Below are positions 3,411 to 9,798 of a DNA stretch of 10,212 nt, in pieces. The stretch covers positions 1-10,212 of the forward strand of contig JAUWJM010000052.1 in assembly GCA_030607715.1 (NCBI GenBank), written 5' to 3'. The notes under the pieces are model-generated. The model made no database searches. It worked only from the letters and a program-made list of their open reading frames with translations, and had not been told where the DNA came from. A program made the position numbers and the translations under genes. Source of the stretch: Candidatus Aerophobota bacterium (lineage in GTDB: Bacteria; Aerophobota; Aerophobia; Aerophobales; B3-G15). Within the stretch, counting starts at the first letter, position 1. Every line of letters begins with the position of its first letter.

Positions 3411-3444
3411 TTGACAAAAAAATTCTTTTGAGTATAGTTATAAT
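3411..3444 (+). promoter_or_regulatory. Promoter of the GAF-ANTAR / gdh unit
   Basis: A perfect TTGACA at 3411-3416, a 16-base spacer and TATAGT at 3433-3438, followed at once by a perfect TATAAT at 3439-3444. The first -10 has standard spacing; the second would be 22 bases from the -35. The leader to the ATG at 3497 is about 45 bases, with AGGGAG at 3483-3488 as ribosome-binding site. Confidence 0.7.
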
Positions 3445-3496: not shown

Positions 3497-4195
3497 ATGT
3501 TGTCTCAGAATTTCTCTTCTTATGTAGAAGCTTTGTCTAAAATAAGCAAGGCTATATCATCAGATCTTTATTTAGAGGATATTCTGCGGCTTGTAGTTAC
3601 TGTTACCGCAGAGGTAATGAAATCAAAGATAGTCTCTCTTATGCTACTGGATGAGAAAAAAGAGAAATTGATTATTCGAGCTACCCAGAGTATAAGTGAG
3701 GAATACAACGAAAAACCACCTTTGAGAATTGGAGAAGGAATCGCCGGCAAAGTAGTTGAGAAAGATAAGCCTATTGCTGTATATGATGTTACCGGAGAAA
3801 ACGAGTATAAATACAAAAATATAGCTCAAAAAGAAAATCTGTGCTCACTTCTCTGTATCCCCTTAAGCGTTAAGGGAAAAGTGATAGGTGTTATAAATTG
3901 TTATACTTCTGTTCCTCACAAGTTTACTCCTACAGAAATAGATGTTCTCACCAGTGTAGCTAATCAGGCTGCGGTAGCTATTGAAAATACAGAGCTAATG
4001 GTGAAAACTAAAGTAATTCAAGAAGAACTGGAGACCCGCAAACTCGTGGAACGAGCTAAAGATACATTGGTGGAGAAATTAAAAATATCCGGGGAGGAGG
4101 CTTATCGAAGAATACAAAAGAAAAGTATGGATATGCGAAAGCCTATGCGAGAAATCTCTGAGGCTATAATATTATCCTCAGAGATAGAAAAATAA
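3497..4195 (+). CDS. GAF-ANTAR domain RNA-binding antitermination regulator
   Basis: A 232-residue cytoplasmic regulator. Residues 10-168 form a GAF sensor domain: LRIGEGIAGKVVEKDKPIAV, then LLCIPLSVKGKVIGVINCY, and TSVANQAAVAIEN at its end. A coiled linker (about 168-185) leads to an ANTAR domain at 180-228, recognisable by ERAKDTLVEKLKISGEEAYR followed by IQKKSMDMRKPMREISEAIIL. The usual Gly after AK is Asp here. ANTAR domains bind paired hexaloop hairpins in mRNA leaders and prevent terminator formation. They are often fused to receiver or GAF domains and often control nitrogen genes. The GAF ligand cannot be read from the sequence. AGGGAG lies eight bases before ATG 3497. Directly downstream are hairpins fitting the ANTAR target and then glutamate dehydrogenase, so the likely target is the next gene. 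Confidence 0.92.
   Translation: MLSQNFSSYVEALSKISKAISSDLYLEDILRLVVTVTAEVMKSKIVSLMLLDEKKEKLIIRATQSISEEYNEKPPLRIGEGIAGKVVEKDKPIAVYDVTGENEYKYKNIAQKENLCSLLCIPLSVKGKVIGVINCYTSVPHKFTPTEIDVLTSVANQAAVAIENTELMVKTKVIQEELETRKLVERAKDTLVEKLKISGEEAYRRIQKKSMDMRKPMREISEAIILSSEIEK
4154..4185 (+). other. Perfect hairpin in the 3' end of the ANTAR coding region
   Basis: ATCTCTGAGG at 4154-4163 pairs fully with CCTCAGAGAT at 4176-4185, a 10-bp stem around a 12-base AT loop. It lies within the last 14 codons and just before the first hexaloop hairpin. There is no U-tract, so it is not a terminator. It could stabilise or mark the message, or be a side effect of the codons. Confidence 0.45.
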
Positions 4196-4254
4196 AGACA
4201 AAGTAGTCTCATAATAGAGCACATCGTGGTGCTCAAAGTAAAACAAGGGTGTTT
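4196..4254 (+). promoter_or_regulatory. ANTAR-target leader: consecutive hexaloop hairpins
   Basis: Three small hairpins with six-base loops follow the ANTAR gene, each with A at loop position 1 and G at position 4, the published signature of ANTAR substrates. Hairpin A is AGAC-AAAGTA-GTCT (4196-4209). Hairpin B is GAGCAC-ATCGTG-GTGCTC (4217-4234). Hairpin C is AAAC-AAGGGT-GTTT (4241-4254). B and C are six bases apart, and C shares bases 4245-4254 with the 5' arm of the downstream terminator, so C and the terminator cannot form together. That is the classic ANTAR design: a bound protein holds B and C, the terminator fails, and gdh is transcribed. A is an extra candidate with a four-bp stem. 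The fit is by eye; no folding energy was computed. Confidence 0.75.
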
Positions 4255-4310
4255 ATCTATCAATCTACACAAAAAAGTGCAGGATAAATAGGTAAGCACC
4301 CTTTTTATTT
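4245..4310 (+). terminator. Conditional intrinsic terminator before gdh
   Basis: Bases 4245-4260 (AAGGGTGTTTATCTAT) pair with 4288-4303 (ATAGGTAAGCACCCTT) over 16 positions, two of them G-U, followed by TTTTTATTTT. The loop is 27 bases and contains a smaller CAC/GTG hairpin. It sits between the ANTAR gene and gdh, 30 bases before the gdh ATG. Its 5' arm overlaps hexaloop hairpin C, so it is probably an attenuator rather than a plain gene end. Confidence 0.8.
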
Positions 4311-4339
4311 TACTATAAATAAATTATGAGGGAAAAATC

Positions 4340-5620
4340 ATGATACAAGAAAAAGCAAGTGAGAAAGCAGAGTATAATTTAAACCCTTTTGCCATTGCCC
4401 AGTGGCAATTAGACACAGCAGCAAAGAAGTTGCAATTAGAACCAGAAATTTGTGCTCTGATAAGAGAACCAATGAGGGAGATCCAGATAACAATTCCTGT
4501 AAGGATGGATAATGGCACAATTAAGATTTTCAAAGGATTTAGGGTCCAACACAACGATTCTCGCGGTCCTTGTAAAGGGGGTATTCGGTTTCACCCTGAT
4601 GAAACCATTGATACTATTAGAGCTTTAGCTATCTGGATGACCTGGAAATGTGCTGTGGTAGACATCCCCTTTGGAGGTGCCAAGGGAGGAATCATCTGTA
4701 ATGTAAAGGAGCTTTCAGAACGAGAATTGGAAAAATTAAGTCGAGGTTACATTGATAAAATATACAAAATAATAGGACCTGAAAGAGATATTCTGGCTCC
4801 CGATGTTTACACTAATCCTCAGATTATGAGCTGGATGATGGATGAATATTCAAAATTAAAGGGAAACTATTGCCCAGAAATGATTACTGGAAAGCCTATA
4901 TCTCTGGGAGGTTCTCAAGGAAGAAATGATGCCACTGCCAGGGGCAGCGCTTTTATGATAAGAGAAGCTGCAAAACATCTTAATATGAGTCTTGCCACTG
5001 CTACTATAGCCGTTCAAGGTTACGGAAATGCAGGCTCTTATATAGCTATTTTACTAAAGGAGCTATTTGGCTCAAAAATTGTAGCAGTGAGTGATTCAAA
5101 AGGAGGAATTTATAATGCTAATGGTCTTGATCCCCAGGAAGTATTAAAGCATAAAGTTAAAACAGGTTCAGTGATATGTTTTCCTGAGGCTGAGAATATC
5201 AATAATGGTCAGTTATTGGAGTTAAAGGTCGATGTGCTTTGTCCTTCAGCGCTGGAAAACTATATAACTTTGCAAAATGCTGACCATATAAATGCTAAGA
5301 TTATTGCAGAACTTGCCAATGGGCCAACCACACCTAAAGCTGACGATATATTGTTTAAAAAAGATACGTTTATAATTCCCGATATTCTCTGTAATGCTGG
5401 TGGAGTTATGGTATCTTATTTTGAATGGGTTCAAAATCTTTATAGGTACTACTGGGAAAAGAATGAGGTCTACGATAGATTAAATAAAGGAATGACCAGG
5501 GCATTTTGGGAAGTGCTAAAGGTGTCCCTCGAGAATAAGATAAATATGAGAGTAGCCGCTCATATGATCGCAGTTAACCGAGTAGTTGAAGCTATGAAAC
5601 TGAGAGGTTGGATAAATTAA
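4340..5620 (+). CDS. gdhA: Glutamate dehydrogenase (Glu/Leu/Phe/Val dehydrogenase family)
   Basis: A 426-residue cytoplasmic enzyme that interconverts glutamate with 2-oxoglutarate and ammonia; the length is normal for hexameric bacterial and archaeal enzymes. The substrate site is clear: GPCKGGIRFHP with Lys79, TWKCAV with Lys103, GGAKGG with catalytic Lys115, and APD with Asp155. The cofactor domain has GYGNAG at 227-232 and VSDSKGG at 250-256. The acidic residue after the second strand favours NAD over NADP, by inference. The C-terminal half carries ELANGPTTPKAD and the conserved CNAGGVMVSYFEWVQN. The start has GAGGGA about seven bases upstream. Expression is predicted to depend on readthrough of the terminator at 4245-4310 under the upstream GAF-ANTAR protein. 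That would tie the gene to nitrogen or redox signals. A related amino acid dehydrogenase cannot be excluded, but glutamate is the best reading. Confidence 0.93.
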   Translation: MIQEKASEKAEYNLNPFAIAQWQLDTAAKKLQLEPEICALIREPMREIQITIPVRMDNGTIKIFKGFRVQHNDSRGPCKGGIRFHPDETIDTIRALAIWMTWKCAVVDIPFGGAKGGIICNVKELSERELEKLSRGYIDKIYKIIGPERDILAPDVYTNPQIMSWMMDEYSKLKGNYCPEMITGKPISLGGSQGRNDATARGSAFMIREAAKHLNMSLATATIAVQGYGNAGSYIAILLKELFGSKIVAVSDSKGGIYNANGLDPQEVLKHKVKTGSVICFPEAENINNGQLLELKVDVLCPSALENYITLQNADHINAKIIAELANGPTTPKADDILFKKDTFIIPDILCNAGGVMVSYFEWVQNLYRYYWEKNEVYDRLNKGMTRAFWEVLKVSLENKINMRVAAHMIAVNRVVEAMKLRGWIN

Positions 5621-5623
5621 AGA

Positions 5624-5681
5624 GGGTCAGGTCTTCAAACTTGACATAAATATCATTGAGTGAAGAATGAAGACCTGACCC
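5624..5681. repeat. Palindromic repeat (REP/MITE-like) at the end of gpsA
   Basis: GGGTCAGGTCTTCA at 5624-5637 is perfectly complementary to TGAAGACCTGACCC at 5668-5681, a 14-bp stem around 30 bases. It starts three bases after the gdh stop and contains the stop and last codons of the convergent gpsA gene. Terminal GGGTCAGGTCTT/AAGACCTGACCC arms are, as far as I recall, typical of short dispersed palindromes mobilised by IS200/Y1-type transposases; that link is inference. No U-tract follows on either strand, so it is not a standard terminator, though it may still stabilise the 3' ends of both messages. Confidence 0.65.
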
Positions 5682-6740: not shown

Positions 6741-6923
6741 TTTGTAACAGTTCAGCCACTAAGTCACCAAGGCACAAAGAAGTGATATGAATTTTAAATC
6801 TCTATTGGAAAGAAAAGAATGTATTGCTAAAAAAATTAACCACTGAAGACACAGATGACGTTAAAAATTTTAAGACCGGGTTTACTTGGTATCTTCGTGT
6901 CTTGGTGGCTGAATAGTAACAAA
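6741..6923. repeat. Inverted-repeat element upstream of gpsA
   Basis: The plus strand at 6741-6779 and the reverse complement of 6885-6923 match at about 30 of 39 positions, sharing a core of TTCAGCCAC followed by spaced AAG and CAC triplets. Together they frame about 180 bases with no gene. The left arm begins 30 bases upstream of the gpsA start and explains the spurious N-terminal extension of that frame. This looks like a MITE-type or other small non-coding repeat. No transposase is present. Confidence 0.5.
6838..6853 (+). repeat. Left copy of a 16-base inverted repeat
   Basis: AACCACTGAAGACACA. Its reverse complement occurs at 8581-8596 with one mismatch. The pair encloses the sRNA candidate and the decayed restriction-modification genes. 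The left copy itself lies inside the element at 6741-6923. Confidence 0.5.
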
Positions 6924-6976: not shown

Positions 6977-7010
6977 TTGACAAATTCCTTTTATTATCTA
7001 TAATTATAAT
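6977..7010 (+). promoter_or_regulatory. Consensus sigma70 promoter
   Basis: Perfect TTGACA at 6977-6982, a 16-base spacer and perfect TATAAT at 6999-7004, followed at once by a second TATAAT at 7005-7010. This is the strongest promoter in the window, and it repeats the doubled -10 seen before the GAF-ANTAR gene. No ORF follows; a terminator ends the transcript about 70 bases later. Confidence 0.75.
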
Positions 7011-8200: not shown

Positions 8201-8634
8201 TTAAAAAGAATGTTAGTTTTTCTGGCAAGTTAATTCTCAAGTTGATTCTGTAATATATATCCAGTTTTTGATATGATGATAACGATAAGATATTTATCTT
8301 ACTCTTTAATGAGTATTTTAGTATTTTTGAGGTCGTAGTCAAATAGAAATAAAATTTGCTTTTTCCGTTTTGAAAACAAATTAACTCTTTCATAAGTAAA
8401 TTTTGAACGGAGGCAAGATTTATTGCAAATTATTTTAGATTTGATATTATATTAAATGTCAAAGCATTATTCTAATTATGAGTATAAAAATTTGGAAAGA
8501 ATGTCAAGGATAAAAATATGAGGATAGTATGTTGGGTAATATGTGAAGGATAAAAAATCCCTTTACTTATTACAATTATTTGTGTCTTCTGTGGTTAAGT
8601 TTTGGTATTACTGAACATTATGAAAGGAGTCCTT
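8201..8634. other. Very AT-rich stretch without a supported gene
   Basis: Lies between the XRE remnant and the DUF362 gene. A minus-strand open frame at 8184-8393 has low-complexity composition and no recognisable domain. AAGGATAAAAA occurs twice, near 8507 and 8547. The 16-base inverted-repeat copy at 8581-8596 is the only feature I would defend. The missing 5' part of the XRE gene would have been expected here. Confidence 0.5.
8581..8596 (-). repeat. Right copy of a 16-base inverted repeat
   Basis: TGTGTCTTCTGTGGTT, the reverse complement of 6838-6853 with one mismatch. It lies 38 bases before the DUF362 start, and together with the left copy it brackets the decayed island. Confidence 0.5.
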
Positions 8635-9798
8635 ATGAAATCTACAGTTTCCATAATAAGATGTAAGAATATACACAACTTTCGAGATATAAAAAGTGCT
8701 TTGAGAAAAAGTCTTGATTTAATTGGAGGGTTAGAAGCTATTATATGCCCACAAGACACAGTTATTATTAAACCCAATTTAATTAAACCAGCTCATTATA
8801 AAACTGGCATTACCACTAATTCTTTACTTGTAAGGGCTCTTTGTGAGATAAGCAGGGAAAAAGGGGCAAAAAGAGTAATTATTGGAGAGGGATCTGCAGT
8901 TGGATATAATACAGAAAAGGCTTTTAATGAAACAGGTATGAGAGAGATAGCCAAAGAGATGAATGTGGAACTGATTGATTTTAAAAAAGCTGAGTTGATT
9001 CCTGTGTTTGTAGTAGGAGGTAAGATATTACACAGGATTAAACTACCCCGTATCTTATTAGAGGCAAATGTAATAATAAATGTCCCGGTTATGAAGACTC
9101 ACGATACTTTCCCAGCAACTCTTGGTCTTAAAAACATGAAAGGGGTAATTAAAGAAGAGGATAAAAAAAGATTTCACAGGTGGGGATTATCTCAGTGCAT
9201 AGTTGATTTAAACAAACTTGTTCTTGCTGATATAACAGTTATAGATGGAACAGTATGTATGTAGGGGCTTGGACCTACTCACGGAACTCCTGTGAATTTG
9301 GGAATTCTAATTACATCAAAGGATACAGTGGCTGCAGATGTTGTAGCTTCTACAGTAATGGGAATAGATCCTATGAGTATTGAATATATAAAATTGGCAG
9401 CAGATGAGAACCTCGGATGCGGTGATCTATCCAGGATAGAAATATTAGGAGAGAGCTTGGATAAGGTAATAAGACCTTTCAAACAAATTAAGATTGATTT
9501 TGATAAATATAAGGATGAAGGAATATTTATCTATGAGAAGGGTGCCTGCAGTGGGTGGCGTCATACAATGGAAGCTATCATAAGTAATCTGGAAAGACAG
9601 AATAAATTAAACTTGTTAAAAGGTTACACTTTGGTTTTTGGCCAATTAGCCCATATTCCCTCAAAATTAAAGGGAAAACTTGTAAATATAGGTTTGTGCA
9701 CAAAAAAATACAAGGAGAAGGGTGAATATATCCCAGGTTGCCCTCCTCATCCTGAAGATGTAGTCTCTTTTTTTAAAAGGAAGAATAGGGAATCGTAA
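8635..9798 (+). pseudogene. DUF362-domain protein interrupted by an in-frame UAG
   Basis: Start ATG 8635 has AAAGGAG five bases upstream; the frame can be extended to a TTG at 8602, but nothing supports that. Residues 1-210 are the N-terminal part: IIKPNLIKPAHYKTGITTN, VIIGEGSAVGYNTEKAF, then VINVPVMKTHDTFPATLGLKNMKGVI. They end VIDGTVCM before a TAG at 9262-9264. The same frame continues at once as GLGPTHGTPVNLGILI and DTVAADVVASTVMGIDP for 177 more residues to a TAA. In DUF362 proteins this junction normally reads Met-Glu-Gly, so the stop replaces a Glu codon (GAG to TAG is one base). A separate ATG at 9292 could start the second half, but without a good ribosome-binding site. The C-terminus carries a GCPPHPEDV segment. 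DUF362 proteins are thought to be iron-sulphur-related; the exact role is unknown. It may be a pseudogene, a read error or a readthrough gene. Confidence 0.8.

Follow-up and report, generated by a model that had tools for sequence, protein, structure and literature searches.

A predicted ANTAR antitermination switch between a GAF-ANTAR regulator gene and a glutamate dehydrogenase family gene in Candidatus Aerophobota

Introduction

A 10,212-nucleotide stretch of Candidatus Aerophobota DNA (the window, meaning the whole stretch analysed) carries a gene for a GAF-ANTAR protein followed on the same strand by a glutamate dehydrogenase family gene (gdh). Does the RNA between the two genes form an ANTAR antitermination switch, which protein would act on it, and is gdh its target? 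In the mechanism described in the main text of PMC3369931, two short hairpins with hexaloops bearing A at position 1 and G at position 4 (A1/G4) are joined by a short linker, the second overlaps an intrinsic terminator, and nitrogen genes lie downstream. According to the same text, no GAF- or PAS-ANTAR protein had been characterized by 2012; passages on the subject in PMC7496416 name PAL (PAS-LOV-ANTAR) and NasR (NIT-ANTAR) as the characterized one-component cases in 2020. We found no characterized GAF-ANTAR example in the open-licence PMC literature, where 'GAF-ANTAR' occurs only in PMC7496416 and no paper was found with both 'Omnitroph' and 'ANTAR domain'.

Results and discussion

Architecture of the locus and its leader RNA

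The intergenic stretch between the GAF-ANTAR gene and gdh measures 144 bases and holds the leader. The features are as follows.

3411..3438, + strand: candidate sigma-70 promoter TTGACA-16-TATAGT, 5' of the GAF-ANTAR gene (11/12 consensus letters)
3497..4195, + strand: GAF-ANTAR regulator gene (232 aa; GAF 26-163, ANTAR 175-225)
4196..4209, + strand: third hexaloop hairpin, P0, AGAC-AAAGTA-GTCT (A1, G4), directly 3' of the GAF-ANTAR stop codon (-2.4 kcal/mol)
4217..4234, + strand: hexaloop hairpin P1, GAGCAC-ATCGTG-GTGCTC (6 Watson-Crick pairs; -9.7 kcal/mol)
4235..4240, + strand: linker between P1 and P2 (6 nt)
4241..4254, + strand: hexaloop hairpin P2, AAAC-AAGGGT-GTTT (4 pairs), mutually exclusive with the terminator
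4245..4303, + strand: intrinsic terminator, outer stem 4245-4260 with 4288-4303 (-26.8 kcal/mol)
4304..4312, + strand: U-rich tract TTTATTTTA, directly 3' of the terminator stem
4340..5620, + strand: glutamate dehydrogenase family gene (Glu/Leu/Phe/Val dehydrogenase; 426 aa)

A preliminary description of this DNA had proposed P1 and P2 with six-base spacing and A1 and G4 in both loops, together with a 16-position terminator stem whose 5' arm overlaps P2 and which is followed by a U-tract. All coordinates of the hairpin pair hold, and the terminator stem pairs at 16 of 16 positions, two of them as G-U. The leader thereby combines the features of dual-hexaloop ANTAR targets, namely two hairpins of at least three pairs, A1/G4 loops, a short linker and a terminator overlapping P2. 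The hairpin P0 was absent from the feature list of the preliminary description. It could permit early loading of the protein or provide an alternative hairpin pair; about 4% of shuffles of its stretch carry an A1/G4 hexaloop hairpin, and an extra upstream hairpin of this kind accompanies only one of 71 hits of the covariance model R2 (below), near the 0.8% shuffle rate, and is not a family trait.

The candidate promoter at 3411..3438 is a consensus match only, of a kind no commoner in the window than in shuffles. A perfect sigma-70 consensus, TTGACA-16-TATAAT, occurs elsewhere on the + strand, at 6977-7004. The gdh product matches the Pfam ELFV dehydrogenase domains above cut-off (255.9 and 192.9 bits). 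Its nearest NCBIfam model is GdhA_Arch, an archaeal-type glutamate dehydrogenase, at 612.6 bits, below the 750-bit equivalog cut-off; glutamate as substrate is therefore inferred from the family rather than certified.

Folding of the leader and tests against chance

The 120-nt leader is predicted to fold at -43.0 kcal/mol, against -17.2 +/- 2.8 kcal/mol in shuffles (z -9.2), and P2 alone is weak (-0.6 kcal/mol). The predicted protein-free fold consists of the terminator and P1, with P2 pair probabilities of 0.0, whereas in a transcript cut at 4262, 5' of the 3' arm of the terminator, the P2 pairs reach probabilities of 0.63-0.82. Such mutually exclusive P2 and terminator folds are the geometry of an antitermination switch.

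In a scan of the whole window on both strands, the leader was the single place where two A1/G4 hexaloop hairpins occur and the second contains the start of a terminator. The same combination was absent from 100 shuffled windows and from 2000 shuffled leaders, and no place in the window appeared when loop positions 1 and 4 were given any of the 15 alternative letter pairs. No Rfam family was matched in the leader at E<=5. A simple terminator scan did not list the leader terminator because that scan permits loops of at most 8 nt.

Covariance models of the RNA element

An element of the same design lies near Amt and glnA genes, in which a linker joins the hairpins GCAC-ATCGTA-GTGC and GAAC-ANAGGC-GTTC and a terminator starts within the loop of the second; the P1 core of the window, GCAC-ATCGTG-GTGC, matches its first hairpin. 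Strict scanning of the window and 202 loci, which together amount to 2,997,218 bases over the two strands, yielded 10 distinct elements, against none when each of these sequences was shuffled once. Poor conservation, suggested by the few elements in 80 GAF-ANTAR loci when linkers were held to <=14 nt, was overturned by admitting longer linkers and the Amt and glnA loci.

Two covariance models were built. R1 derives from alignment A2 of 12 seeds, the window among them, that were picked after the hairpins had been seen, so its hits on the seeds and the A2 pairing counts are partly so by construction. Three seed loci (L038, L082 and L150) had been chosen by the P1 pattern alone, which occurred at 17 real places against 4 shuffled ones, and their P2 is consequently less circular; L029 and L110, which show the P1 pattern with G replacing A1 of P2, were excluded as seeds. 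R1 was run on 82 of the 202 loci plus the window, and R2 on 30 loci. R2 derives from alignment A3 of 32 R1 hits in 30 loci and holds no sequence from the window or from L082; it was built from hits of a model seeded with the window, and several of its members are R1 seed places. The E-values of both models are rough. Covariation is modest, with cells changed on both sides numbering 5 in A2 and 7 in A3, and 5 of the 8 pairs are invariant in each alignment.

The assignment of the leader as an ANTAR antitermination element, already made in the preliminary description, gains support from R2, which was built without the window and gives the leader 30.2 bits (E 1.3e-7). The second-best R2 place in the window, 6770-6805 on the + strand, scores 11.4 bits (E 0.028) with a P1-like AGGCACAAAGAAGTGAT and no P2, and is likely due to chance.

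These results bear on another account, in which the structure is a plain terminator of the GAF-ANTAR gene, gdh is transcribed from a separate promoter and the hairpins are without significance. The strength of the terminator (-26.8 kcal/mol) suits it, and a TATAAA string at ~4314-4319, between the U-tract and gdh, makes a weak gdh promoter with its -35 element inside the hairpin conceivable. Against this, the promoter scan lists no site of at least 9/12 on the + strand of 4196-4340, only ~30 nt separate the U-tract from the gdh ATG, and the hairpin pair appeared in no shuffle yet is recovered by R2, whose sequences come from other genomes. We regard this account as improbable, although it is the strongest of the competing explanations.

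The GAF-ANTAR protein

The preliminary description had taken the adjacent gene to encode a GAF-ANTAR protein, and both domains were matched (ANTAR: PF03861, 61 bits against a curated cut-off of 27.3; GAF: PF13185, 82.8 bits). The protein belongs to a large family, with 7528 of 8000 scored candidates reaching E<=1e-3 and the best 120 listed. Its AlphaFold model has a mean pLDDT of 87.3. In a VIA-align comparison whose rows were filled by GAF matches, and which covers the GAF part and not ANTAR, the GAF domain is nearest to the EI-Ntr GAF structures 3trc and 3ci6. The GAF domain of EI-Ntr (PtsP) senses glutamine, and the output of EI-Ntr is a phosphotransferase. The two GAF domains share a like fold at 21-25% identity, a common fold being no proof of glutamine binding.

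Comparison with the RNA contacts of EutV, as given in the contact list of PMC8934654 and numbered with an offset of 2 worked out in this analysis, shows that R142, K143, K149, Y164, M172 and R175 are kept in the GAF-ANTAR alignment, and that K147 is replaced by R and N173 by D. By eye, the listed contacts Glu160, Arg168 and Arg177 correspond to Gly, Gln and Pro in the same alignment.

Co-occurrence of the RNA element and the protein family

The distribution of the element was surveyed in 193 genomes of one phylum (that of genome G001, labelled Omnitrophica). GAF-ANTAR was found at E<=1e-40 in 139 of them, and R2 at E<=1e-3 gave 71 hits in 47 genomes. All 47 belong to the 139 genomes with GAF-ANTAR, compared with 0 of the 54 without (Fisher 1.5e-8, kinship ignored), where 'without' means no match at E<=1e-40, so that such a genome may hold another ANTAR protein or miss contigs. 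With looser thresholds the pattern admits a few exceptions: R2 at E<=0.02 hit 65 genomes, two of them (G061 and G065) without a GAF-ANTAR match, and R1 at E<=0.1 hit 57, one of them (G053) without. Under strict filters, and in genomes that are possibly incomplete, 92 of the 139 GAF-ANTAR genomes had no R2 hit at E<=1e-3; 10 of 20 further genomes had none at E<=0.1. The hit lay on the same contig as a GAF-ANTAR gene in 43 of 71 cases and within 20 kb of it in 40.

R2 is blind to terminators. A terminator nevertheless starts in the P2 loop or 3' strand in 65 of the 71 hits, whereas shuffling those stretches gave one in 16 of 1420 cases; of the six hits without an overlapping terminator at the set score, two have one beginning just behind P2. 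Loop conservation is high, with the reservation that R2 itself favours the A1/G4 letters and the counts are thus not independent of it: G4 occurs in every scorable loop (70 for P1, 71 for P2), and A1 in 53 of 70 P1 loops (G in the other 17) and 65 of 71 P2 loops, the exceptions being G save for one T. The preliminary description would have counted against a switch any related leaders that retain the terminator without the A1/G4 hairpins; among the 71 leaders, all of them model-found, G4 was lost from no scorable loop.

Other traits vary. P1 loops of 7 nt occur in 9 of 70 hits, and with stems fully extended the linker is longer than 12 nt in 31 of 70 and at least 20 nt long in 16 of 70. An apparent clustering of linker lengths, seen with 4-pair stems, disappeared once the stems were extended. 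Tandem switches were observed in L184 (2256-2326), L224 and L230, where P1, P2 and a terminator are followed in the same leader by a hexaloop-like hairpin with its own terminator. In L204, L207, L208 and L217, inspection by eye revealed, 5' of the RNA element and in gene direction, a repeated GTTACCAAAA ~8 nt before TTTTACTTGT, perhaps a shared promoter or the site of a second regulator.

The partnership of the leader with the adjacent protein can also be questioned, in that the RNA might be chiefly the target of a different ANTAR protein present in the cell. Five of ten relatives scanned have two ANTAR matches each, which leaves room for such a partner. The element co-occurs, however, with one and the same GAF-ANTAR family, commonly within 20 kb of its gene, and in the window the two are adjacent; we consider this explanation slightly less probable still than the plain terminator. 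Post-initiation control of a kind other than antitermination, such as the sequestration or translation control proposed for ANTAR RNAs without terminators, is the least probable of all: it would suit locus L014, where by eye GAF-ANTAR is followed by two A1/G4 hairpins with 7-nt loops and then GDH with no terminator visible (11.0 bits), but not the leaders in which a terminator starts inside P2, the window among them.

Nitrogen targets and the case of gdh

Downstream of 68 of the 71 R2 hits, an ORF of at least 80 aa begins no further than 450 nt away (the longest being taken). Glutamine synthetase is matched by 17 of these 68 ORFs, 7 of them with the type III N-terminal family, followed by the glutamate synthase amidotransferase domain (11), Amt (7), the GDH family (4), NifH (3) and ANTAR (2), for a total of 44 of the 68 provided that no ORF falls into two classes. 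In one glutamate synthase case a short HTH_8 ORF lies between the RNA element and the gene. GAF-ANTAR relatives are themselves frequent neighbours of nitrogen genes. Ten genes downstream of GAF-ANTAR, picked by size in 80 loci, comprised two glutamine synthetases, two GDH family members, one gene of the glutamate synthase region, two glutamine-hydrolysing NAD synthases, a CTP synthase, a DUF1846 gene and an NADH dehydrogenase subunit. In 45 chosen GAF-ANTAR genomes, Gln-synt_C was matched in 37 and Amt in 32 (E<=1e-20). Regulation of a wider ammonium-assimilation regulon in related bacteria by the same GAF-ANTAR family is the best explanation of these associations.

The proposal of the preliminary description that gdh is the target stands in part. 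Among 22 GDH family loci (L081-L102, some truncated at contig ends), strong R2 hits lie just upstream of GDH in two (L095 and L096) and, in a third (L092, the same element as L011), upstream of a GAF-ANTAR-GDH operon. Elsewhere the association weakens: in L088 the hit is downstream of GDH, and L083-L086, with GDH 46-50% identical, have no R2 hit. Of the genomic GDHs whose upstream DNA is readable, the closest (L082, Desantisbacteria, 65% identical) has a leader that scores 13.8 bits (E 0.1) and reads by eye as GCAC-AATGAC-GTGC and GAC-AACGGT-GTC with a terminator beginning in the second loop. No R2 hit at E<=0.1 was found in the whole genomes G004 and G010. With strong upstream hits in only 3 of 22 GDH loci, gdh is one recurrent target among several.

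Proposed mechanism

Taken together, the evidence leads us to read the leader as a one-component ANTAR antitermination switch through which the GAF-ANTAR protein controls gdh, with a probability of roughly 0.87. Computation shows the parts and their mutually exclusive folds, the joint occurrence of RNA and protein across the family, and targets in nitrogen metabolism; the events that these observations suggest would run as follows. Transcription from the promoter 5' of the GAF-ANTAR gene would continue into the leader, gdh presumably being co-transcribed. By default P1 would fold and the terminator would halt RNA polymerase before gdh. With GAF in its active state, a GAF-ANTAR dimer would bind P1, then P2, and hold P2; dimerization and the direction of control are suppositions of this scheme. 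Held P2 would keep 4245-4254 from the terminator, so that gdh would be transcribed. The signal may be nitrogen status, glutamine being the first candidate.

Tentatively, and at rather less than even odds, we extend this scheme to several uncultured lineages, where a one-component GAF-ANTAR protein whose GAF domain directly reads nitrogen status (glutamine or 2-oxoglutarate) may control an ammonium-assimilation regulon (GS, GS-III, GOGAT, Amt, GDH and some nif genes) by RNA antitermination, in the role played elsewhere by NtrC, GlnR or NtcA. Its RNA code would consist of G4 with position 1 relaxed to purine, would tolerate 7-nt first loops and linkers of >20 nt, and would include some leaders with tandem or extra hairpins.

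Relation to known ANTAR systems

The hairpin pair, linker, terminator overlap and downstream nitrogen genes recur in EutV/eut, NasR/nasF and AmiR/amiE as described in the main text of PMC3369931. Those systems use receiver or NIT input, whereas the protein of the window has GAF and its proposed target is gdh. The 6-nt linker of the window falls within the 5-12 nt given for eut in the same text, and the actinobacterial survey in PMC8164766 gives a range of 2-25 nt. In the account of the EutV structure in PMC8934654, G4 is the sole base-specific contact; the presence of G4 in all scorable loops of the R2 hits fits that structure, bearing in mind the preference of R2 itself for G4. The family departs from EutV in its linkers, since an extension of 20 nt abolished EutV function according to PMC8934654, in contrast to the 16 of 70 family linkers that are 20 nt or longer. 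The P1 loops also depart from those of the known systems, with G at position 1 in 17 of 70 and a length of 7 nt in 9 of 70.

Nitrogen regulons of ANTAR RNAs are not themselves new. The main text of PMC3369931 already predicts such RNAs before nitrogen genes in many bacteria, and the regulons predicted there for Desulfotomaculum acetoxidans and D. reducens likewise comprise several ANTAR RNAs per genome before nitrogen-metabolism genes. The searches it reports name P-II, ammonium transporters, nitrogenase, and glutamate and glutamine synthase enzymes (glutamate synthase in D. reducens); its main text contains neither 'gdh' nor 'glutamate dehydrogenase', and its passages on the Desulfotomaculum regulons assign them no GAF-ANTAR partner. 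What is new here is the pairing of the GAF-ANTAR family with its RNA, a proposed gdh target adjoining its regulator, and the family traits. The locus offers a defined protein-RNA pair for binding, ligand and readthrough assays, through which the GAF-ANTAR signal becomes testable, and the covariance model carries ANTAR regulons into uncultured phyla.

Other features of the window

An ORF at 561-2342 on the - strand fuses NusB to a CCA-adding enzyme (tRNA nucleotidyltransferase). Near full-length relatives with the same domains carry the name Candidatus Aerophobetes in five cases (P0251, P0252, P0261, P0298 and P0301) and Patescibacteria in one (P0244), which suggests an Aerophobota-like bacterium as the source of the window; among the best matches from 30 genomes, none spans both parts in one frame. 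A DUF362 gene at 8602-9798 contains an in-frame TAG at 9262-9264, near which the Pfam match stops (1-168 of 200), and its frame continues into an ORF at 9292-9798; the TAG may reflect a nonsense mutation, an error in sequencing or stop-codon recoding. Just 3' of gdh, at 5624-5681, lies an imperfect inverted repeat with 22-nt arms that are 86% complementary (GGGTCAGGTC...GACCTGACCC), which may be a dispersed repeat or a hairpin at the end of gdh.
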